Program-made: the position numbers and the translations under genes | NCBI RefSeq assembly: GCF_040436345.1 | Contig: NC_133216.1 | Coordinates: 3,252,533-3,316,532 of the forward strand | Origin: Pagrus major | Lineage: Eukaryota; Chordata; Actinopteri; Spariformes; Sparidae | Direction: 5' to 3' | DNA length: 64,000 nt | In this document: positions 1 through 32,566 of the stretch, piece by piece | Layout: each line of letters opens with the position of its first letter | Position numbering within the stretch: the first letter of the stretch is position 1 | The notes under the pieces: generated by a model | What the model was told of the DNA's origin: nothing | Database searches by the model: none | Seen by the model: the letters and a program-made list of their open reading frames with translations, nothing else

Positions 1-718
1 GAATGTACAGATATTAATCCATTTTTTTTCACTTTTATTTTACACATTAATATACAGAACAATAATAAAACACTTACAGGGAGCTGACTTCTTCTTTAAT
101 CACTGACAATAACACCTAAATATTGAGCCATTAAATCTTCACGTATAAGTGTGAATGTGTGTGTGAGTCTGATCATGTCTTTGTGTGCGTTTGTTCGTCT
201 GTCTGATGAGCGATGATGTAAAATTTTACCGAACCTGAAGTGTATTTAACTAAAATTACGTTTCATGATGGTTTCTACACTTGAACTGAGCTCAGTGAGT
301 CTGTGTGCACGAACGTCGTAAAATAAAAGTAAGTTGAATGTTAGAAACAAAAATTCTAATTTTGCCTTTTTAAGATCGTGTTGATGAAATTTTAACGACT
401 CCAGTTTTGGCAGCAATAAAAGCAGATATACTTTATTTACGCCTCCGTGCTGTTTACAACCCTGATGCGGTAATTTTAGTTTCACTCTGTTATTTTACAC
501 GTCACAACGCTTAATTGGGGGCATTCTGCGTAACGAGACGGCTACTTTTTAGGAAAGTAAATGATCTGAATTCTTCTTCCAACACAGCCAATAAGACCCG
601 GTGTGTGCGTTTTGTATTGTTCATTCCAGAATGCCACACTCGTAACTGTGTTTGCACAAGTGTGGGTTTCCTGAGTGTGTTGCGTTTCATCTGCCTGACA
701 CTTTATTTTGTGTGTCAG
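1..718. other. No coding exon recognised; probably intron of the cep295-like gene
   Basis: No exon with convincing splice sites and family similarity is seen on either strand. The first exon I can assign begins near 719, after a pyrimidine-rich tract ending in CAG. Since the protein is clearly incomplete at its N-terminus, this stretch is most simply an intron of the same gene, whose earlier exons lie left of the window. Confidence 0.4.
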
Positions 719-3700
719 TCTGCACACAGGCCTCGTGATTCTGACTGCCTCTCCTCCACCACCATCTCCACCGGCAGCTACATCACCACCGATCCTGAGC
801 AAATCCCTGGTGAGGGACAGCACGAGTGTGTTTTGTTAGGTACGGTGGTTTTGTCGTCATTTGTGCTTTTTTGAATCTTGTGGCGTTAACAACAGAAACA
901 TCAGAAAAGTTGCCTGTTCAGCTTCACGTGTGAGAGAATCTGATATAAACAACATGACATCTTTCTTCTCTCACTTCATCAGATAAATCCTCTCCCCTCG
1001 ATCGTTTGGAACAAAGACGAGCGGCAGGTTTACTCGACGCCTCCTCCTCTTCGTCCGGTCAAAGCTTCAGTGTCGAGGACAGCTCGGCTGCAGTTCATCC
1101 TGCCGTTAACGTCGAGTCTCTGTTTAATGAAAGCAGCATCCAGCAGATTATAGACAGATACACAAGAGAGCTGAATTTCTCCCTCAGCACCACTGGGAAA
1201 ACCACAGGTACACATACTGGACATTTATTACAGTGATGCCTCTTTATTTTAGATGGCATCTGTGCAAACACCTTTTTTAAGTGGGATAGTACAAGTTACT
1301 TGACTGTAACAGTGTTTGCTTTAGTTTAAACAGGCCTTGCTCGCTCGTTGCACATAAATCAGTGTTTTTATTCCAGAAGACTTTTTTACAATGTCAGTTC
1401 AGTGTCTTATTTCCCTTGTTGTTGTTCTGCAGACAGGCGGGGCTCGTTTGTGGAGGAACCGGACTCTTCAGTTTCTCAGCAGTCGTTGGTTCAGGTCTCA
1501 GAGACGAGACGGGACGATGAAAACTCTGCAGTGAGTCCGACTCTTCCATCAAACACAGCAGGAGCACAGAGGAGTGATCAGGTTAGTCAATCTCAATCAT
1601 ATTAAATCAATCACTATAAATTACTCAAGCATCTTTTTCTGCACTATGTTTTGGACAAACCGTATGCCTATATGAAAATATCTGTGATAGGCCAATATCA
1701 GTCAGTTTGTTAGTATATTATTTGTTACCCAGCATTCACTCGATGTTTTGTCCGTTGCTGCAGGAATGGGACGATACAGACGATCCGATCCTGGAGCACT
1801 TCTCAGGCGAGGACCAATCACTTCAGGACTCTTTCCGACCTCTGATTGGCCAGCTGACAGACCAGTCCTCCTGTCTGGCTGCTGACCACAGGGACTCGGC
1901 CATGGAGCAGCTGGTCGGTCAACCGTCGGCTCACTCGTCTGTGATTGGTCAGCTACCAGGTGTGCCGGTTCCCTCAGTGAGCCTGGATCAAGGCGGATGG
2001 GATTCCACTCTGAGTCGGATGATTGGTCGACTCTCCCATCAGTCCGGCTCGCATTGGCTGAGCGGTGGGCAGGACTTTTACGCGGGTCAGCTGATGGGTC
2101 AGATGGTGTCGGAGCGGTCGGCCTCGTGGTTGGACGGAGAGCCGGAGGAGAGCCGGATGAGGCCGCTGGTTGGGGAGCTGGATGAGTCTGCAGGTCAGCA
2201 CAGTGGGAGCTCAGGTAAAAGGATTGTTTGAGTTATCGGAAATGTGCAGTAAAGTATTAAAGGGGCAGTTTGTGAGATTCAAGATTCTGTCTTTTACCAA
2301 ACTAAGATGAGTTTAATTACCTCGTTAAGCCGTCATAAAACACAATAACTAAATAAAACTCACCAACACAGTCTTGGTTTCCACAATCTCCTCTGTTTTG
2401 GTCCAAATAAATCCTCAGTTCACAGAGTAAGATGTGAAAATATTCAACCATTTTGAGACGCTCGTACACTTTTTGAAAATGTAGAAATGAAGCTTGTGAG
2501 TTAATCATCTAATCTGCTGTTTGTAGGTGACAGAACTCGTGTGGCTCTCGGTGTTTCAACTGAATCCAGTGTGCCGTCGTATCCAGCGTTGCCTCCTGAA
2601 GCCTCGTCACACAGCGCCTCTGTTCCAGATGTGAATCCACATCCACAGGACCAGACTGTGCAGAACCAGACCAGTCCAACAGACCTGGGCCCAGAGAGGA
2701 CTGAAGGTGGGTGTATCAGACGGAGTATATCATCATCATCATCATGCACAACACGTTCAATCTATGGTCTCAGTTTGTAGCCACGGTCATTTAAAAGTTT
2801 GCACATTATGTTTCATGTGTGACCTCATTTTCAGTGTTTCCAGGCTCCGACTCGTTCCACCCTCTACTGGCTGAGGTCACCCACAATGAGACTGCAGACC
2901 CCTCCATGACCTTTCACCTGCCCGAACACAATGTGCCTGAATCTCCTGAAGGACAGCGAGCCGGCAGTGTTTCCTCGCCTTCTGTTGAGTCTGAACCGTC
3001 ACCCGAGTGCCTGAGAGCAGAGCAGCCGTCCAGCTGTGTGACGACTTCCCCCGCCTTAGATCAGTCTTTGATCCAGCTCATCACCTCCCAGAACCATCCT
3101 CACGATGTGGAGCTAACAGCTCTGAGTCTGTCCAATCTATCCGTGTGTGATGATGCGCCTGCAGCGAGCGTGTCGCAGCCAGAGGAGCCTTTCAGTGAGT
3201 CTGAGCAGAGTTTAAACCTGAGGAGTGATGTTCCTCCGTCAGAGAAGATGATGGTAAGATCATGTTTTCTTGTTCAACTTTGAAAAAAACATCTTTCAGA
3301 CATTAATTTAAGAGCACTTTGCTCTTTCATGCTACAGCTGCTTGTTGTTACTAAGAGAAGAAGAATGTCAGATTATTTTGGGAAACAACATCTTTGTTGT
3401 GAAAACTTGTGTGTTCAGGAAGCTGCCGGTGTGAAGGGGATCCTGGAGCAGTCAGATATAACGTTAGTGAGCCTGACGGACACGACGCTGCCGGACCAAG
3501 AGACGACCGTCACTGATGAAGACGAGCTTCAGGAAGACAAACATCCAGATGGAGCGAGGGAGGAAGGACAGGAAGGCAAAGAGACTGAGGTGATTATACA
3601 GCTTTCAACATTTTGACTTCAGCAGCAGATGTCTCCTGATCTCTGAGCACAAACCTTTTCTTCTTTAGGGATCAGAGTCTGCGTTAACGGATGAGACTCC

Positions 3701-14735: not shown

Positions 14736-14923
14736 ATCGCTTCTCGGCCTTTTGGCTAAAATCAAGTGTAGTATCTGTTCTTATCAGTTTAATATCTGAT
14801 ACGTCCCCTACCCGGGGACCATATATTAAATTGATTTTTGGAGCAGGGAGATGGAATAGGGGCTTGCTCCGTCCACTCCACGCATCGACCCGGTATTGCA
14901 GAACCTCCAGGACCGGTGCACCC
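14736..14923 (+). ncRNA. U2 small nuclear RNA
   Basis: A full-length (188 nt) U2 homologue from ATCGCTTCTCGGCCTTTTGG to CGGTGCACCC. The branch-point recognition segment GTGTAGTATCTGTTC is intact, as is the Sm site GATTTTTGGA. U2 pairs with the branch site of major-class introns and is the core RNA of the U2 snRNP. Compared with the recalled human sequence, stem IIa carries paired changes (GTCCCC...GGGGAC instead of GTCCTC...GAGGAC), which keep the helix. An A replaces G at position 25, and one pair in stem IV (GGTATTGCAGAACC) is weakened. An snRNA-type 3' box follows. It may be a working gene or a slightly diverged copy; the upstream promoter element was not confirmed. Confidence 0.93.
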
Positions 14924-14933
14924 CCCTCTCAAT

Positions 14934-16808: not shown

Positions 16809-19800
16809 TCAGTTGGCGTGCTGAACGGTGGAGAAGCACAGTTTGAGGGTGTACGGGTACGGACCGGCTGGAAACGGAGAGAGAATTAAAAATTTAGGCG
16901 ACGATCGACACCACCAGCCTCAAAGTTCTGAAACAACACACCGGCACAAACCTTTTTTCTGTCTGAAACCCTGCTCAGCACCACAGAGGCTTAGGGGAAC
17001 AACCTCAGACATGTTACCTGCGTTTTTCATCTGGTAGTGGTTCATCATGGCCAGAGCCTCCATGGCATCATTGATGGACTCCCACTCTAACAGCCCTGAA
17101 GCGCTGCGGTCACTGGGAGCGGCGCCGCCTGGTGGTCAGAGTCAGAGTTACAACACCTTCCAGATACAGAAATATCACTGCAGGCAGTTTTGTGCTGGTT
17201 TAAATGTTTTGGTTTTTGTTGCCACATTTCATTTGATGGATATAAACTTTGATTTTCTCCAAGTTCAGTGGCTTTAAAGAGAATCGCAGCAGCTTACTCT
17301 TTCCTGTGAACATTTTGACGTTGACGGGGCACTTGATACCGATCTCCTCACAAATCTGTGGACAGAACAACATCTATTATTTACTGCAGGCAGGTGAAAC
17401 TTATTTTGTGACTTTTTAAACAAGGAAATTAATTTATTAATAAAGACAACGTGGTGAACGCAGTGAGACGTTCCACAGACCTGAGAGAAAACCTCTGGCG
17501 TGACGTCGGGCTGGGCGTTGAAGAAGTGCAACACGTTGCTTGGGTGCTGGATGCGGTTCTTGGCCGCCTGTTCTGGGGAGGTGAACCGGTTGTTCCTGGA
17601 GCCGTGGAAGTCTTTGAAACTACTTGTGCCGTCCTCCAGCTCGTAGCACTGACCGGGTACGATGGCTTGCTGCTTGGACACACTGCAGGGACGGAGGATT
17701 GTTATTTTAATTAAGAGTGCTGTACTGGTGTAGCTAATACTTTCCTCCTTATTTAGCTGCTTGGTACAACAACACTAATTTGTCTCAAGGCTTCAGTAGT
17801 CTTAATATGTCCGAGGCATCCGACTCTACAGCATAGTTTACATGTTCTGGGTAACAGAAGAGCTTCAGGGCCAGAGGGGTGAACTCACCACACATTCATT
17901 CTCTGTCCGAAGAGAAAGTTGTTGTTGAGGTGACTGATGGCTCGATCCACTGCATAGCAGTCTCCCATCTCCACCATGGCTGCCCCGGGCTTACTCTTCA
18001 TGAACTTCACCTGCAGGACGAGATGAAAGACAGGATGAACAAGTTTCCTTCAACACAGCGCCGCCCTGCTCTTAATTTGTCAACACAACTTCTTTGATTG
18101 AAGATAATGTGTGTGTGTGTTTTGGATACAATACATATTTTACACTTCCAAAATAGAGCAAAGCAGCAATTTATTCCAGACACATTATCAGTGTATAAAC
18201 CTTTTGTTCTTGGCTCAATGTTTCTTGTTTTAAAGATTATTTTTGGGCTTTGAGCCTTTATTTTTAAATCGGACAGCGAGGAGTCAGAAGATTGTGTCAT
18301 TTCATCTTTGAGGTTAAATAATAAAGAGATTAAAAACTACTATTTTAAGTGCAGCCTTTTATCAAAGAATGACGGATCCAGCTCACAACAAAAATAGATA
18401 CGCTTTAAATAATGAATTTGACATGTCGGCCCTTAAATAGAGAATAAAAAGCAAAGTCCCGACTGTCTCTGAGGATACGTCTCCCCTCGGTGCCGAGACC
18501 TGGAAACAATTTGTTTCTTCTGCATGTGTATTTTTATCTTCTCTTTCAACAAGAGGAGGAAACAAACCTATTTCATGTCTTTGTGGGAAACATTGTGCGT
18601 TTTCTCTGCAGATATTGAGTTTATTTTTTTATCTGGTGAAGACCTTTCAGCTTGAAATGTTTCCCTTCACAGCAGAAACAGACACATCCACCGTCAGATA
18701 CTGACCCGCTCCACGTTTCCATAGAGACAGAAGATATTGAAGACACGGTCGGCGTTCATCTTGGTCGGGTCCAGTCCGTACAACATGACGACTGGAGACT
18801 CAGCGTGGCCGCCGTACTCTCCAGGAGGAGGGGGAGGAGGTCCGTAGCCCGGCCCGTAGCTTCTTCCGCCACGTCCTCTCATCGGTGGACCCATGCGGCG
18901 ACCCTCATAGGGCGGAGATCCATAGCTCTCGTCATAGCCATGGTAACCGCCACCTGAAGGACGAGGCAGAGAGACGACGGTGAGAGGACAGAAAATAAAC
19001 CAGTAATCCACCAAGGTCGGGTCAAGAGAAGCATTTTTCTGGAAAACGTCGTCACTGACTGGAGAAAAAGGTTTCGTCCCAATAAAAAAAATAAATACAG
19101 CACATGAAGCGTCCTAGTTGTCATCACAGCACCGCTTAACTGCCACTGTGTGGAGGACCGATTATAAACTTTGATCAACATCTATCCCCAAAATATCAAG
19201 TTTAATTACCCCACAGACTTCAGGTAATAAAAGGCATCTTTTTAAAAAGGAAAGATAAGCACAGTTTTTTCTTTCCATGTGTATGTTCCAGTGTTTGTTC
19301 TGGTTCCTCGGGGGTGTGACATCCTTACCGTACTCTGGAGGGTGGTCGCCCAGCAGAGCAGGCTGTCTCTGACGCTTGTTGGGGTTGGCATTCACATCCT
19401 CTATGAGATCGGGAAGACAAAACAGGAGAAGAAAGGCAGAGAGAAACAGAAAGAGCCAAATAAATATGACGGGATGCTGGAGCATTTCACACATGGCATC
19501 ATGGTTAACTGACATTTGGATGAGATTTTAGATAAATAGATCAATTATTTGTCAGGATAACTTTCAATCAATTAGTACTTGAGACGGACGCATGCATTTC
19601 AAGATTGATTCATCTTGCCTGTAAGAGTCATTACAGACATAAAAACACCCCCCACAGTACACTCCAGGCAGGTCACAACAATCAAACCAAGCAGCTGAAA
19701 TAATCAGATCATCTTTGTCTGTAGGAATTAGATTAAGGAAATGGGAAGGGAGGTGTGGGGATGTAATAAATGGCAAGACTGATATGAGATTCAATAGAAA

Positions 19801-22800
19801 TTTCCCTAAACCACAAATCAAATCCCTTTAAATCAGAAAACATCCACAATAATAAACTTTTAGCACTTAAAGTGAAACAGGTGGGACATGGCAAACATGA
19901 GGTGGATGCTAATGATCTAGGAGGTGAAAAAAGGGACATCAAGACAGAGTCACTCTAGATAAGCATCACAAATGGCTAAATTTAAAAATAAAGTTTGTAC
20001 GCTCACACACACCTGCATTGCTCCCATTGCCATCTGCATCACCATCTGTACAGGTACACAATAATCATACACAATCAGAACGGAAGCCAGGTTAATCAAA
20101 AGGTACATTTTCCTCCCAGTTTAACCCAGTTAAATGTCAGGAGAGTGCAGTAAAACCCACTCATGACAAAGCTGTCTGGACTATGAAATGCGGATGGCTT
20201 GGTACCTCTGCAGGTGACCAACCAGGCTCATGCAGATTGTAATTTGTCAACCAAAATAAAAAAAGGCAGCTTGTAAATTTTGGACACCAGCAGCCACTGA
20301 GGCTCTCCTGGCTTCACAGGTATGTGACGCTTTGGATCACCCACATCATACATGAATTAATATGAAGTTCACAACCTTTTCTCCAGATTAAATCATGATT
20401 CAGTTCCCCAAAAGAAACTATCACACAGGTCCAGGGAACCACACATAACAGATTCATGATGGCCGTAAAGTGCCAACAGAGGGAGCGACAAGACAAAGCG
20501 AACACAGTAAGTTTGAGTGACATTAGAAATGCAGCCCCCTGACAGAACCACAACCATCACCCTCCTCCAGAAAGAGAAAGATTAAGCCTGTATGAGGAAA
20601 CAAAAACAAATCGAGTCATGTCAGTCTTGTGTGGCGATGTTGGGTGCTGGGCGTTGGAGTCATGTGGTGCTGTGCAGTTATGTCCCCCCAGAGGAGGCTC
20701 TCGATTTACTTACTGCATGCTTACAAACAGTGGGAGGAAGATATTTGCTGCAGTAGATCCACCACTCTCCACTCATTTCATTTCATCCAATACTCTTATC
20801 CATTTCCTCTTTTGGGGGAAACAACTCTCCACCTCAGGATCGATTCCTGGTTTTATCAAACGCCCATTGGAGGGTTGGTCCGTCCTTTTTGTTCCTTTTT
20901 GGAAAAGTCCGCTTAGCGCCCACTGGTAGGCCTTGAGGCTGCCATAGAGAACATTTCAGTTGGGAAGCTGGCTCCTCTTAGCCGCAAATTGCCAAACCTG
21001 CATCACATGGAAGGCGTTACACAGGTTCTAGAGACTTTAAAATGTTAAGAAAAAAAACTGCACTCAAAAAAAAAAAAGGGATAGCTTAACAGGGATGCAT
21101 GTAGTAAGAAAATCAGAGGAGGGAAAAGATGAGGAGATGAGGAGAAAGAGCAAGAGAGAGAAGCTGATTTCCATGTGGGAGGAAACACATAAAACCAAAA
21201 ATGGGCCTGAATGGGCTCTGAGTGTGCTTGATGGTGTTGTCAGCAGTGTCTTCATCAGTTGTCTTGTGTTGGACTCCAATGTGACGGGGGTGTGATTCAT
21301 CTATTGGATCAGTCGGTACAGCGTCGGCAAGTGCGCCGCTCGAGTGTGTTGTTTTCATGTCAACAAACGTGACGAGCAATGCGGCCCCACATACAGGAAG
21401 GGCCGAGGCTTTTAAAAAATGTGATCTCGGTCGACTGGATAGTATCAGTGTGCATCAGCTGCTGTGCTGACAGATGTCTGTCACTACCGTCTGATTGGGT
21501 GGATGCTGTGTCTTCTCTGGTATCAGTCTCCATTTGGGATTGTCGGTGCAAGCTTTGGCCTGCTTCAATGTGTCATCGCTTGTGTCTCGACATGAAAGGG
21601 AGAAGGGGGGGAGGGACCAAGTGTAGCTCAGTGCCCAAAACTCCCCGCCCTCGAGAAGTGTGCGTTGTCTTCATGGCTCTTGTGCTGGGATGCAGAGATG
21701 AGGAGTGAGTGGGAAATCAGTCCTACATCGTCATGTTGAGTGGGTGGTGGTGGTGGTGGTGGGGTCTTGTCGTTTGTCCCCTTGTGTCTCAGGGGACGTT
21801 TGGCCCTCTGTATGAAAGTGGTTGTGTCCTCACTGAAGATACTTGAGGTGGTGGTTGCTGAGTGGGGATGTTGTCAGCATGTATCTGCCTCTCCCTTTTA
21901 GCACATGTTCCTGTGCATGTTTGTTCTGACTCGCTGAGATCACAGATTTATTAGGAGAAGATAAGAGTTACATGATGTTGCACATGGCCCGTTTACTGAT
22001 GCTGGTCAATGCCTCCGTTCTCACGCAAATCACAGTTACCATCTGTCTGACAGCATAACAAAATACTTTGGCTGCTCTGATTGGGACTCGGTATACTGTC
22101 GAGTCTTTGTTAGGATTTTCCAGTTGTCAAAGTTAAATAAAACAACCAACGGGAGAAGCCGACAGTGGAAAAGACCAGGATCAGTCTTGGTGGCAAGGAA
22201 ATGTGTCTCTGCCTCAGTCAGAGTATCTGCACAGTACCCCAGGGGATCTCAAAAACTCTGCAGATTTACAGGTGTGGTAAGAAAGGCAGGAACAGGAAAC
22301 ACTGGTGAGAAGATACAACAAGTTTTACGTCTTCACTACTGAAATATGTAGATGTGACTCTTATGAGGTTATTAAAAAAACACACCTGTCACTGTCTTAC
22401 ATTGAGACAACAGCACTCTTATCTTCTGTCTCGGGGCTGTAATCAACAAAACTCGTCTGCCTGGTAGGCTTGTTGAAGTAGTTAGTTACAGTTGTCAATC
22501 TCTGTTCGGGTATACTCCCATTATATTTCCTGACCACACCGTCGTTCTGCTTTTTAAACAATCAAAACTTAACTCAGACGATGGACCCTGACATGGTGGA
22601 TGTGGCATCAAACTGACCAGAAAAAGCTTCTTCTTGGCAATATTTTGCACTTGAAGCCAATGCTATAAGGGAATCTGATCATCTCTAAGCTACTCTTAAC
22701 GCCAGACATACTTGAACCACTGACTTGAAAATTTGGGAGACAATGCCAGTGCCTCTGCGGCTTCTCAAACTATATTCACAGGACACAGCCTAAATGTTTA

Positions 22801-25800
22801 AGTGTGTGCATAAAATTAAGCTATCCAACAAAAAATGTAGTAAACAGTTTGGCTCATCAACACTGACAGGAAAAGACTCCTGTCCTGCAGCTGGGCTTTT
22901 AATGGGTTCCTGCAATTCTCACCACACAGCAGAGCTCAATACTTTTGTCTTCAAAATATTTTGCTGGAATTGTTCATTCTATATTTCTGATGCCGACTAG
23001 TCTTTACGGTTAAACTGCTATGGGCTATTTAACCTGAGTATTATTTCACATTAAGCCCCTGGTTTTCCATAACGCCTGCATACGATCCCTGATCATGGTG
23101 TGTACTGACAAATGTTAAGAGGTTTTAAGACACAAAACAACACCTTCAGTCATAATGCCACAAAAGTTCTTCCAAAAATACCATATTAATTTATGTTGAT
23201 GAAGGTTCTCAGTCATCCAGGTCATGATAAATCTAAGTGCTGTACTGTAGGCAACTGCACTTGTAGACTTAGTATACTGGCCACAATTTAAAATGTGTCT
23301 ATGTAGCAGCATTATCAATGAAAGGTGTTGACTCCAGCACTTTAATAGCCTGCTTGCTGAAACTCCTCACAGTGGCAGTAAGGGTGATTAACAGTATCAG
23401 GCTTCTAAGCTACAAAGCGTGTGTGGCGCTCAGAAAATGCTCAGGATGTGTGAAGGTGTGTGAGGTTTTACCTGGTCCTCCTAGGTTTGGGTTTGTGTAG
23501 TCCCAAGTGTCTTGGTCATTCTTGAACACATTCAGACGGGTGGGCTGAAGAAAAACAAATCATATGAATACAAGCTGGCTGACAAAAATTACACAGCTGT
23601 TCATACGTTTATTTGCTTTAAGTTAAAACACAAGCAGCAGTGGTGTTCTAGATAAATACACAAAGTATACACAGTATAGTTTGTTCAGCCTTTTCTCCAA
23701 CAATAAAGTGAGGCTGCGTTCAGTACAGATGAAAAAATAATAGTCATTTACTCAATTAAAATAAAAAGGTATTGACTGTGTCGTGTTCTGCAGTTGTACC
23801 TTTGCATACTCGATCTTCAGTGTGCAGCAGCCAGAGTAGATGTCGGCACCGTTGAGGGAAGCCTTGGCCCGCTGGGCACTTTGCACGGAGTCAAATGTAA
23901 TGACAGGGTTAAGGAAAAGACAGGAAGTGTAGAAGTGCTGGGTAATCTTAATGACGGTAATAACATGGAACCAAGGCCACGAAAGAAGGAAAACCGTCAC
24001 ACCTAAACAATGCTCTGTTGTTCCTAGTTCCTCTGAGTACACAGGGACATGTCCTATGTTTCTAGAGCATTGTGTCTAACAGGTTTTATAGCCTTGTCAA
24101 ACTACACCATCCATCATTACGTTCCCAGTTAGAACTTGAACCTCTTCCAGCAGTTCATGTTGTTTTTGTCTGGTAGCGGCGATGCCCTAATAGTCAACAG
24201 AAGAAAAGGATATTCAACCATGGCCTGGACGCCGTTCTTCCTGAAGATGACAATTCTCTGGACAGGCCCACAGTTGTTGCAGATAGTGTAGAGGACATCC
24301 TGTTAAACCGAAAACAAATCATAATCAACGGACCGTTTAATGTGCAAACAATGGCAGCAGTATAAAGACGTTCTCCTCATTTAGTTTGCTGTGTATACAT
24401 CTACAATAAGAAATGCTGTGTATCGTTAAGCTCTGGATTGTGGGCCGCACAAAACAAGACATGTCAAGGTGTGACTTTGCTCTATGATGTGTGCACTTTA
24501 AAGCGTTTTCTGACACACACGGCTGAATAATTCATTGAGAAAATAATCTATGACAGCCTACAGTATAAAGCAGCAAATCATGCCAGTCTTGTTGGAGATA
24601 TGATGCCAAATTCTGCCCAACTAGGCAACATCTTTAACACAGTATCTCTTGCATCAAACTCAAGAAGAGCAGTAGATTAACAAATCACAAGCCAAAATTA
24701 AAAACATTAGCATATATTTTCCACTTCCAAACAGGCCTCCGTTTACCACCAACATCTCAAAAAGCAGCCCAATACAAATTAACTGTCTCCACTAATCTGT
24801 GTGAATTAAACCAAATCATAAAATGAGGTGAAACTCCACACATCAAGTAAAAAGACAGACAGTGACATAAGTGTTTGTATTTACCGTGGTGATGGGGTAG
24901 ATGGGGTTCATGATGGTGAGCAGGAGAACATTGTTAACACTTCTGGAGTCATCAGAGTCTCCCGGCCTGGAGATCTTCTGGCTAGTGGAGTAGTTGATAA
25001 AGGCTGGGTGGCCGGCGATGTAAACTTGGTTGTCTGCGGCGTAGGTTACAGCTGTGGATGATCCGTTCATGTCTTCGTACTCCACCAGTGCCTGACGCTT
25101 TTTGGGCATCACCACCACGTAGCTAAAGACAAACGCAAGTATAGGGTTAGATGATGTGAAATCAACAAGAGCACGTATGCGGGAAGGTAATTTACTCTGG
25201 GTAACAGGCAACAAAGTGTCTTTCTCTGTTATTTTCCTCTACCTGATTGCTCCAAATTCTTGCAAGGCCTCCACAAGGTCGGCCTCTGTGACACCGTCCA
25301 CCAGACCCCGGACGTGGACAACCACAGAGGGAAGGGTCTTGTGTGGATCCTCATATCCCTGTCGAAGAAAACATGAAATCAGCGAACATTTTCAGTGTGG
25401 ACATTTTTTAACCCACGTGTGGCACTAGAGTTATACCGATTCCGATACCAGGATTGCAAATGCCGCCTATAATACCGAGTACGTGAGTAATTTAGAAATG
25501 GGCCACTTCCCAGGTAGCCTCGTTAGCTCTGCTTAGCGTTACACATCAGAAACCAATACTTCTAACCACAGGAAGTCTCACTGCTGCACCTGGCAACTAC
25601 TGATTTTGGAGCAGCAAAGAAGAAGCTGCTGTTATAAATATAATAAAATAGATAATAAAAGATGTTAAATGGCAATAATTATCTGCAAGTTTAACCTGAA
25701 CCACAGCAATCGTACCACACCAGGACAGGGTTGGTGGTACTGGTATCGGATCGGTACTCTGTATCGGCCGATACCCAAAGCCCAGGTATCTAAATCGGTA

Positions 25801-26791
25801 TCGGGACTTCTGTTGCAGTCTTTCTGGCCATTTCTTGCAATTTAAAAAATATTTAACTAACCTGCAGTGGCGCAAACTAGCACACAAATGAGAAATGTAT
25901 AATTATATGCGTGTTTATTATCTCGTGTAGACGGATTATTGATGTAAGGGGATTTATTCGGTGGCCTTATTAGCATCTGACCACGGATAAGAGATGGAAA
26001 TTACTTTCAGATCCATTTTTAATGAACGAGCATCGTCCCTGCTATATAAAACTACTAAAGACAGAACAAGGAAAGCAACAGACTTTACACGTTATTTGCT
26101 CAAATCACTGGGAGAGAAAACAGCCAGTAGGTATCGTTGGGTCATGCTAACTAATGCTAACACTCATTAACCTCAGGTTACTTGGTGCAGTTGGGGGAAG
26201 GGATGATTGATTGCTGTAGTAAGTGTATCGTTTAGTTAAAAGGGTTTAACTAAAAAAGCTTTTCTACAAATCTTAAAAGGAGTGTTGGTATAGTCAAGCC
26301 AGCATGTAAAATAAGCGAGTAATTTGAAGCACAGCCCCGATCACAATCTGTAGCTCGCAGCTAGCATACGGCTAACGTTACCGGTACTAGAACAAAGCCA
26401 CGCTCAGGCGAGGCCCGGCCGGGGAAACCGCCCTCAACCCATCCCGGTCCGGCTGCACAGCACAGGTACGAGTGCGGGTTATGTTCCGGGAGGTGTCCGT
26501 GTTTCCCCTCGCACGTATAACACGCAATGATTAACACGCAAAGCCCGTGAAAAGGAGACAAACATGGATGTAGCATGACCTGTGACGCGTCGTGACATTT
26601 TTTCCTCCCAACGGCGCATCTGAATGAATCAAACTCGACCGAGAACACTGTGACCGCGTTTGTTGTGTAACCTAAACTAATCTCCGGGGCGGCTCGCACC
26701 GAAAACAACTCACCGTGGCCATTCCGTCGGTTTTCTGTCGTTTCGTTGCCCTGCCGTCTTCGCTGTAGTAACGGCTCGCTGCGGTAGCCAT
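16809..26791 (-). CDS. hnrnpl: hnrnpl, heterogeneous nuclear ribonucleoprotein L, complete (14 coding exons)
   Basis: Exons in order: 26714-26791, 25243-25358, 24885-25122, 24214-24299, 23800-23896, 23472-23544, 20013-20045, 19329-19400, 18706-18953, 17889-18010, 17481-17682, 17298-17355, 17018-17128, 16809-16867. The total is 1593 nt, 530 residues (519 without the 33-nt exon). There are four RRMs: RRM1 ~37-112 (VVVHVRGLVDG...YVVVMPKKRQALVEYED), RRM2 ~128-206 (RSVNNVLLLTIMNPIYPITT...), RRM3 ~318-393 (SPVVMLYGLDPTKMNADRVF...) and RRM4 ~430-530, ending in STVQHAN. A Gly/Pro/Tyr-rich linker with PPPPPPGEYGG precedes RRM3; this separates it from HNRNPLL. The acidic/glycine-rich N-terminus of mammals is much shorter here. 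The known role is nuclear binding of CA-rich RNA to control splicing and poly(A) use. The ATG chosen is the first, giving MATAASRYYSEDGRATKRQK. One intron is U12-type. Confidence 0.97.
20013..20045 (-). other. hnrnpl: 33-nt in-frame microexon of hnrnpl
   Basis: Acceptor TGTACAG and donor GTGTGTG bound 33 nt that enter and leave in phase 1 and encode DGDADGNGSNA. Skipping it leaves the frame intact, so it is a natural cassette. It inserts an acidic, glycine-rich peptide in the linker before NPNKRQRQPALLGDHPPEYG, the position where human HNRNPL has GDPGS. Confidence 0.7.
20046..23471 (-). other. hnrnpl: hnrnpl intron 6 (3.4 kb), CA-rich on the transcribed strand in part
   Basis: This is the longest intron of the gene. 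About 21200-21900 is rich in GTG/GTT on the plus strand, hence CA-rich in the RNA, including a (GTG)n run near 21745-21765. CA-rich RNA is the known hnRNP L target, and human HNRNPL carries a self-regulated poison exon in the corresponding intron. I could not fix exon borders here by eye. The short repeat copy at 23193-23270 also lies in this intron. Confidence 0.35.
23193..23270. repeat. Second copy of the GTTGATGAAGGTTCTCAGTC repeat
   Basis: Shares TGTTGATGAAGGTTCTCAGT and the following TC(A/G)TCC(A/G)GGTCA with the copy at 12824, then diverges. It is a truncated dispersed repeat. Confidence 0.65.
23897..24213 (-). other. hnrnpl: U12-type AT-AC intron in hnrnpl (317 bp)
   Basis: The 5' splice site on the minus strand is ATATCCTTT (24205-24213), a full match to the U12 consensus. 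The branch-point element is TTCCTTAAC (23908-23916), again a full match, and the intron ends in AC at 23897-23898 about 11 bases later. Joining ATGGTTGA to ATTTGACTCC gives M-V-E-F-D-S, exactly the conserved RRM2 peptide. No GT-AG choice restores that frame. Confidence 0.95.
25431..25810. repeat. MITE-like element with inverted CCGAT-CCGATACC ends
   Basis: The left end TATACCGATTCCGATACCAG and the right end reading GGTATCTAAATCGGTATCGG are imperfect inverted copies. GGTACTGGTATCGGATCGGTA lies internally. It sits in hnrnpl intron 1 and has no coding capacity. Confidence 0.6.
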
Positions 26792-31100: not shown

Positions 31101-32566
31101 AACCATGAAAAAAAAGAGTTGACAGCAAGCCAATCCCAATTATTTTCTGCCTGTCAGCATCACAGAGCAAAACAATTTTACGTTGGATGTCTCAATGTGT
31201 TTCGGATACAAGCTGTTATTTGAAAAACTGCAGTTCACACAGTTCGTACCTTCTCACTGGAGTCCTGGACTTGGAGCGTGCAGGGGAGCCAGACCTAATA
31301 TCACAGGAAATAAATCAGGTTTAATTACAGCTATGACAGGAACGATGAACAGCTGAGGGCTGACGACCAGAGTGAGGCCGAGAACATCACTGTACATGTA
31401 CTTAATTGATTCCTGAGGGAGGAAATACATCATCTCTCTCGCCCTGTCAGATTCTACTGCAGAACTGGAATAACAAGACCCTGATGAGGAGCGGCCACAC
31501 CGCTTGCTAACAGTACATTAGCACAAGAATGAAGGAACCGTTAGTGATACTTCAACAAGCCGTTGTCTTACCTGCTCCTGCGTCTGGAATATGATGGAGA
31601 TCGGCGACGGCTCCTGAGAAAGAACACAAGAGTCACAAAAAGGACAACCCTTTACAGGACAGCACTTTAATAAACAACCCACCAGAACAAGAATTTCCTG
31701 TTAATATGTCATTGGGTGTGTCTGTGTGTCAATGTTGACGTACCGGCTGTGGCTACGGCTGCGTGAGCGAGAACGATAGCGGCGTCCACGAGACCTGGAC
31801 CTAGAGCGAGATCGGGACCTAGAGCGAGACCTGAAAGGAGAGAAAGACACGTTTACCACCTTTTGTCTTTCTGCTTCGAAGGCAGCTGAAGAATATCTAC
31901 AGACATGGAAAAAAGCATAATAGCAGCCATGCAAAGACAGACTACATTCCCTCACCTGCTGCCGCGACGACCTCCTCTCTTGCTAAAGCGGTAGCAGTCA
32001 TAGGCATAGTGGCCCCGGTCCCCACACTGGTAACACCGGTCATTGGGGTCAAACTGGCGCCGGCTAGGGCGGCCACGGCCCTTCCTGGAGAGGCCTGTTG
32101 ACATCTCTACGCGAACACGGGAACCACAAAGAACCCTGAGGAGAAGACAAGTCAGCAAGAGAGGCCAAAGACAGCTGTAATTCCTGTAACGGTCTTCGTG
32201 TAGGCTGCAAGGATCTAAAAAGTGGGTCTTCTTGGATTAAAGCGCTAAACATAAGGGCAAAAAATTGTTGTAGATTACAAAATTAATTTGTGGGTAATTT
32301 TTGTTAAAGCTTGCTGAAATCCGACAGTAATATGTTACAACTCACTTTCCATCCATGCCTTTCACAGCATCTTCTGCATCTCTGGGATCCTCAAACTCCA
32401 CAAAGGCAAACCCGGGAGGGTTCCTGGCCACCCAGACGCTCCTCAGCGGGCCGTAATAACTGAACGCTCGCTCCAGCTCCCCCTTGGCGGCACCATTGCC
32501 CAAGTCGCCCACGTACACTTTACAATCAGTGGCCCGAGACGAACTACGGGACGAGTAGTATGACAT
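28160..32566 (-). CDS. srsf7: srsf7, serine/arginine-rich splicing factor 7 (9G8), complete (7 coding exons)
   Basis: Exons in order: 32346-32566, 31956-32135, 31744-31830, 31572-31613, 31250-31294, 30730-30828, 28160-28211; 726 nt, 241 residues (human 238). The RRM covers about 16-85, with RNP2 VYVGDL (17-22) and RNP1 GFAFVEFE (52-59). It is followed by a CCHC zinc knuckle, CX2CX4HX4C (C108, C111, H116, C121), which among small SR proteins marks SRSF7. The RS domain runs from about 134 to the end and closes with [21 protein letters not shown]7 acts in exon recognition, 3'-end choice and mRNA export. The ATG at 32566 begins [20 protein letters not shown]. It is preceded by an acceptor at 32577, so a non-coding first exon lies upstream. 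The four middle RS exons are all multiples of three in phase 2. Confidence 0.96.
28212..30729 (-). other. srsf7: Last intron of srsf7 (2.5 kb)
   Basis: All other coding introns of the gene are 125 to about 420 bp; this one is far longer. It includes a dispersed repeat at about 28430-28675. The stretch 29380-30470 is comparatively complex DNA that I cannot assign. An alternative last exon or poison exon could be hidden here, but no border is supported. Confidence 0.5.
28430..28675. repeat. Dispersed repeat starting ATGGTGTGTTCAGACCAAAT
   Basis: The left end GGTGTGTTCAGACCAAATGC and a degenerate right end (GCAAAAAATTTGGTTTGCAC) resemble the inverted ends of a non-autonomous DNA element common in fish. 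The interior is non-coding. Confidence 0.5.

Follow-up and report, generated by a model that had tools for sequence, protein, structure and literature searches.

The window, by which the whole 64-kb stretch of DNA analyzed is meant, carries the gene hnrnpl on its minus strand. An ech1-like gene and the 3' end of hnrnpl flank a full-length U2 snRNA gene (window 14736-14926, plus strand; RF00004, 179.9 bits). The Sm site and the branch-recognition sequence of the U2 snRNA gene appear intact, and its conserved 5' part shows one change, GCTAAAATCAAG for GCTAAGATCAAG. The ech1-like exon near hnrnpl was named by reading, and this single exon scores far below the full-length cut-off of its family; ech1 presumably neighbors HNRNPL in human as well. 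Exons of an srsf7-like gene, encoding an SR protein with a CCHC zinc knuckle and likewise named by reading, are found near hnrnpl at 31700-32236 on the minus strand. As human SRSF7 lies near HNRNPLL and not near HNRNPL, the srsf7-like exons next to hnrnpl would fit an old duplicated block. Further along the window, exons of a sodium/calcium exchanger (TIGR00845; 42930-43301 and 60019-60450, minus strand), about 17 kb apart, were read as one slc8-type gene; taken singly, they score far below the full-length cut-off of the family.

The hnrnpl exons were located by protein search, their boundaries were then set on the DNA, and exon 1 was placed by reading. The resulting model (Table 1) encodes 519 residues from start to stop, with no stop codon in between. 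Exons 2-13 encode a product that matched the family TIGR01649 hnRNP-L_PTB with 616.5 bits (cut-off 287.4) over residues 10-491 of 493 and showed 78% identity over 503 aligned positions to the human protein. The donors of the 11 introns other than intron 4 match the major consensus MAG/GTRAGT at 6 to 8 of 9 positions. By far the longest intron is intron 6 (19401-23471, minus strand, 4071 nt), which, judged from its position, probably corresponds to the intron containing poison exon 6A; the ACACA density of intron 6, 3.7 per kb, is not raised. An enrichment of CA-rich binding sites was also considered for intron 4 and rejected, the ACACA density of 3.2 per kb not being raised in comparison with the other introns, which range from 0 to 10.1 per kb (10 of 11 scored; intron A was left out and intron K was taken with an earlier acceptor).

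Table 1. Coordinates of hnrnpl and of the elements of its intron 4 in the window
Feature	Position	Strand	Description
hnrnpl coding region	16809..26791	-	13 coding exons, 519 aa, 12 introns: 11 GT-AG, 1 AT-AC
Coding exon 4	24214..24299	-	First part of RRM2, ends ...ATG GTT GA
U12-type AT-AC intron (intron 4)	23897..24213	-	317 nt, phase 2, in RRM2 of hnrnpl, between coding exons 4 and 5; first base 24213, last base 23897
5' splice site ATATCCTTT	24205..24213	-	9/9 to the U12 consensus
In-frame stop codon met on intron retention	24129..24131	-	
Branch element TTCCTTAAC	23908..23916	-	9/9 to the U12 consensus; starts 297 nt into the intron, at 23916; followed by the last 11 nt of the intron, terminal AC included
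3' splice site, terminal AC (CATTAC)	23897..23898	-	
Coding exon 5	23800..23896	-	Second part of RRM2, begins A TTT GAC TCC

The peptide read across RRM2 from the join 24214/23896 shares 60 of its 61 residues with the hnRNP L chains PDB 7evr and 2mqm, which we take to be human hnRNP L and rat Hnrnpl, respectively. The sole mismatch affects residue 9, well away from the junction within codon 29. The bit scores of RRM2 were 124.4 for 7evr (hnRNP L) and 124.2 for 2mqm (Hnrnpl), compared to 99.8 and 99.5 for the hnRNP L-like chains 7evs and 2e5i; at the level of these alignments, RRM2 of the host gene is nearer to hnRNP L than to hnRNP L-like. An exhaustive trial of donor and acceptor cuts within 24299-23800, requiring an intron no shorter than 20 nt, yielded the 61-aa peptide in three adjacent junction registers, AT-AC, TA-CA, and AT-AT. 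None of them is GT-AG or GC-AG, and recognized ends occur in the AT-AC register only. Because the product compared in this trial was the spliced product of the window itself, the independent support for the junction is the identity of 60 of 61 residues to 7evr and 2mqm. The first-pass annotation, made from the letters alone, had placed the intron in RRM2 of hnrnpl and had claimed that a single choice yields the conserved peptide MVEFDSVQ. The placement agrees with the family match and with the identity to the hnRNP L chains, and the second claim holds among registers with recognized ends, where AT-AC alone restores the peptide.

U12-type introns have the 5' site consensus RTATCCTTT, the branch consensus TTCCTTRAC, and a short distance of about 10-15 nt between the branch and the 3' site. 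Intron 4 of hnrnpl starts with ATATCCTTT and ends with CTTTTCCTTAACCCTGTCATTAC, and the presumed branch A is 12 nt from the last intron base. The intron thus has the 5' site, the branch element, the branch distance, and the terminal AT...AC of the U12-type AT-AC class, and its 5' site agrees with the major consensus MAG/GTRAGT at 2 of 9 positions. Re-reading of the minus strand reproduced the coordinates, motifs, and spacing previously assigned to the AT-AC intron, and also the match to the minor-spliceosome consensus asserted for every position, with 9 of 9 for both motifs and the AC 11 nt after the branch element. On both strands of the 64-kb window, RTATCCTTT with 0 mismatches and perfect TTCCTTRAC each gave a single match, namely, the 5' site and the branch element of intron 4. 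No second U12 candidate was found in the window among motif pairs with at most 1 mismatch in total and 40-5000 nt apart, since all five such pairs include at least one motif of hnrnpl intron 4.

The weight of these motifs was judged with a loose joint pattern (RTATCCTT, a spacer of 40-3000, TTCCTTRAC, and then YAC or YAG), which matched once in the window, at hnrnpl intron 4. In dinucleotide shuffles of the window, the loose pattern gave 25 matches in 300 shuffles (0.083 per window), and the strict form with ATATCCTTT, TTCCTTAAC, and AC gave 3 matches in 300. By itself, a U12 motif pair in 64 kb is only moderately surprising. The strength of the evidence comes from the pair being located exactly at the junction that the protein demands, for which a probability of about 3e-9 was estimated by treating bases as independent and allowing 3 registers and 7 branch offsets. 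Pattern searches were also extended beyond the window. In viral contigs, 10 stretches matched, with 0 relatives among them. In genome contigs, 97 stretches matched and two were reported as relatives (L001 and L002); both were dropped as chance, since each covers 30 codons on the strand opposite a long open frame of a bacterial record. The search of the own genome gave 3 matches with a pattern the spacer of which was too short to include hnrnpl intron 4.

Taken together, intron 4 is very likely a conventional U12-type (minor) AT-AC intron that interrupts RRM2 of hnrnpl in a vertebrate, by its gene content probably a teleost. The chance that a pseudogene or a chance alignment was mistaken for a real intron is negligible, given the open model of 519 aa over 13 exons, the 616.5-bit match to TIGR01649, and the 60/61 identity across the junction. 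Excision of the AT-AC intron by the major spliceosome is highly improbable. A U2-dependent AT-AC subclass does exist (Wu and Krainer 1997 and related work, as cited in the available part of PMC6717393), so the dinucleotide ends alone are not decisive, but ATATCCTTT and TTCCTTAAC are both perfect U12 motifs and the 5' site shares only the 2 of 9 positions with the major consensus. Major-type joins in place of the AT-AC junction were sought under three limits: the donor had to lie 60 nt or more into the frame of exon 4, the intron to span no fewer than 60 nt, and the acceptor to precede the end of exon 5 by 20 nt or more. This gave 44 in-frame, stop-free joins of exons 4 and 5 (20 GT-AG and 24 GC-AG), and all were rejected as alternatives: their products lack RRM2 residues, carry others in their place, or include residues read from the intron, and none contains the conserved peptide. 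We consider it quite unlikely that intron 4 belongs to a shifted or nested twintron of the kind reported for HNRPLL, in which a U2-type GT-AG intron would compete with the U12 intron for one location and yield an RRM2 variant or a stop-containing by-product. According to the accessible text of PMC3564746, the U12 and U2 variants of HNRPLL are 537 and 536 residues long and differ slightly in an RRM. In hnrnpl, a donor at 24198 combined with an acceptor ending at 23879 would shorten the product by exactly 1 aa, YPFLL replacing FDSVQS. However, the donor of this join, TCT/GTTGAC, fits the major consensus at only 2 of 9 positions, the acceptor is without a clear pyrimidine tract, and one 1-aa match among 44 possible joins is weak. 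In a scan of GT sites at 24260-23850, the best value reached was 6/9, at 24120, 24002, and 23964 inside intron 4, equal to the weakest true donors of the gene, but all three sites are past the in-frame stop at 24131-24129, so a full-length protein from them is impossible and only a non-productive product could result. The geometry differs as well, for a 2021 review places the U2 intron of HNRNPLL inside its U12 intron, not shifted against it (PMC8329584, in excerpt). On sequence grounds, a matching twintron in hnrnpl would be a weak lead. The 3' half of intron 4 is open in the exon 5 frame for about 60 codons (window 23752-24075, minus strand), and an upstream major 3' site could therefore extend RRM2 in frame.

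Read as a minor AT-AC intron, intron 4 would be expected to undergo U12-dependent splicing, with a possible effect on expression. In minor splicing, the 5' site and the branch element are recognized jointly by U11 and U12, U6atac replaces U11, and the branch A attacks the 5' site. For intron 4, the U11 and U12 snRNPs would together recognize ATATCCTTT and TTCCTTAAC, U6atac would then occupy the 5' site instead of U11, the branch A, some 12 nt short of the last intron base, would attack this site, and the join of 24214 to 23896 would restore MVEFDSVQ. Retention of the intron adds 27 intron-coded residues and places a stop at the 28th codon, with 8 introns downstream. Failed or slow removal would thus leave a transcript with an in-frame stop upstream of 8 introns, for which nuclear retention or nonsense-mediated decay would be expected, and minor-spliceosome activity could cap hnrnpl output. 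As the premature stop has 8 introns downstream, a rate-limiting role of intron 4 is plausible. That slow minor splicing of intron 4 acts as a switch setting the hnRNP L level beside the poison-exon autoregulation is nevertheless regarded as possible but doubtful. It would agree with the general model in which U12 introns are spliced slowly and may limit expression (Patel et al. 2002, as cited in the part of PMC3584512 available), with U6atac being limiting for many minor-intron genes (excerpt of PMC3728624), and with the premature stop that would arise on retention. On the other side, the accessible part of a survey suggests that minor introns may have evolved largely through neutral processes (PMC10639083), and hnRNP L is already autoregulated by poison exon 6A (partial text of PMC7547044). 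If minor splicing does limit hnRNP L, some of the altered alternative splicing in minor-spliceosome disease could arise indirectly, via hnRNP L/LL targets.

A wider scenario would have hnrnpl and hnrnpll share an ancestral U12-type intron in RRM2 that predates their duplication, with the supply of hnRNP L/LL reading out minor-spliceosome activity, changes in U6atac or U12 spreading to many major-type alternative splicing events, and a weak competing major site adding the RRM2 variant (YPFLL for FDSVQS) in some tissues. As a joint proposal, it appears rather unlikely.

A U12-type intron in a splicing-related gene is not new in kind. HNRPLL, NCBP2, and ESRP1 are such genes with reported U12-type introns in the available text of PMC3564746. 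No statement on HNRNPL as a minor-intron gene was found in the open-text literature, which was represented mainly by titles and the starts of abstracts, supplementary gene tables and intron databases lying outside the search; for this reason the negative is not evidence of novelty, and the HNRNPL intron may well be already listed in such tables or databases. HNRPLL, a paralogous splicing-regulator gene, resembles hnrnpl in having a U12-type intron, its splice variants differing in an RRM. It is listed among 18 human genes with a twintron, in all of which the ancestral intron is U12-type (Janice et al. 2013, PMC3564746, in part). The U12-type intron of HNRPLL leads one to expect a U12 intron in hnrnpl, too, if the intron is older than the duplication. 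The two genes differ in that HNRPLL has a reported U2-type alternative, whereas the evidence for one in hnrnpl is weak.

Among the splicing factors considered here, control by a minor AT-AC intron is best documented for SRSF10, as far as the accessible text of PMC7244321 goes. As in hnrnpl, the host gene encodes a splicing factor and has an AT-AC U12-type intron, the removal of which is required for the SRSF10 coding mRNA; in contrast to hnrnpl, SRSF10 has been shown to contain an enhancer in exon 3 and a major 5' site that competes with the minor one. Poison exon 6A offers a likeness of another sort, the hnRNP L level being controlled by splicing of its own pre-mRNA (PMC7547044, in part), but it acts at another intron than the AT-AC intron. 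Among minor introns in general, the AT-AC subtype makes up about 22% in human (PMC6717393, partial text). Intron 4 of hnrnpl is like generic vertebrate AT-AC U12-type introns in its termini, 5' site, branch element, and spacing, and is set apart from them in sequence solely by both motifs being perfect. It is one more clear example from a gene for a splicing factor and leaves the picture of minor introns unchanged.
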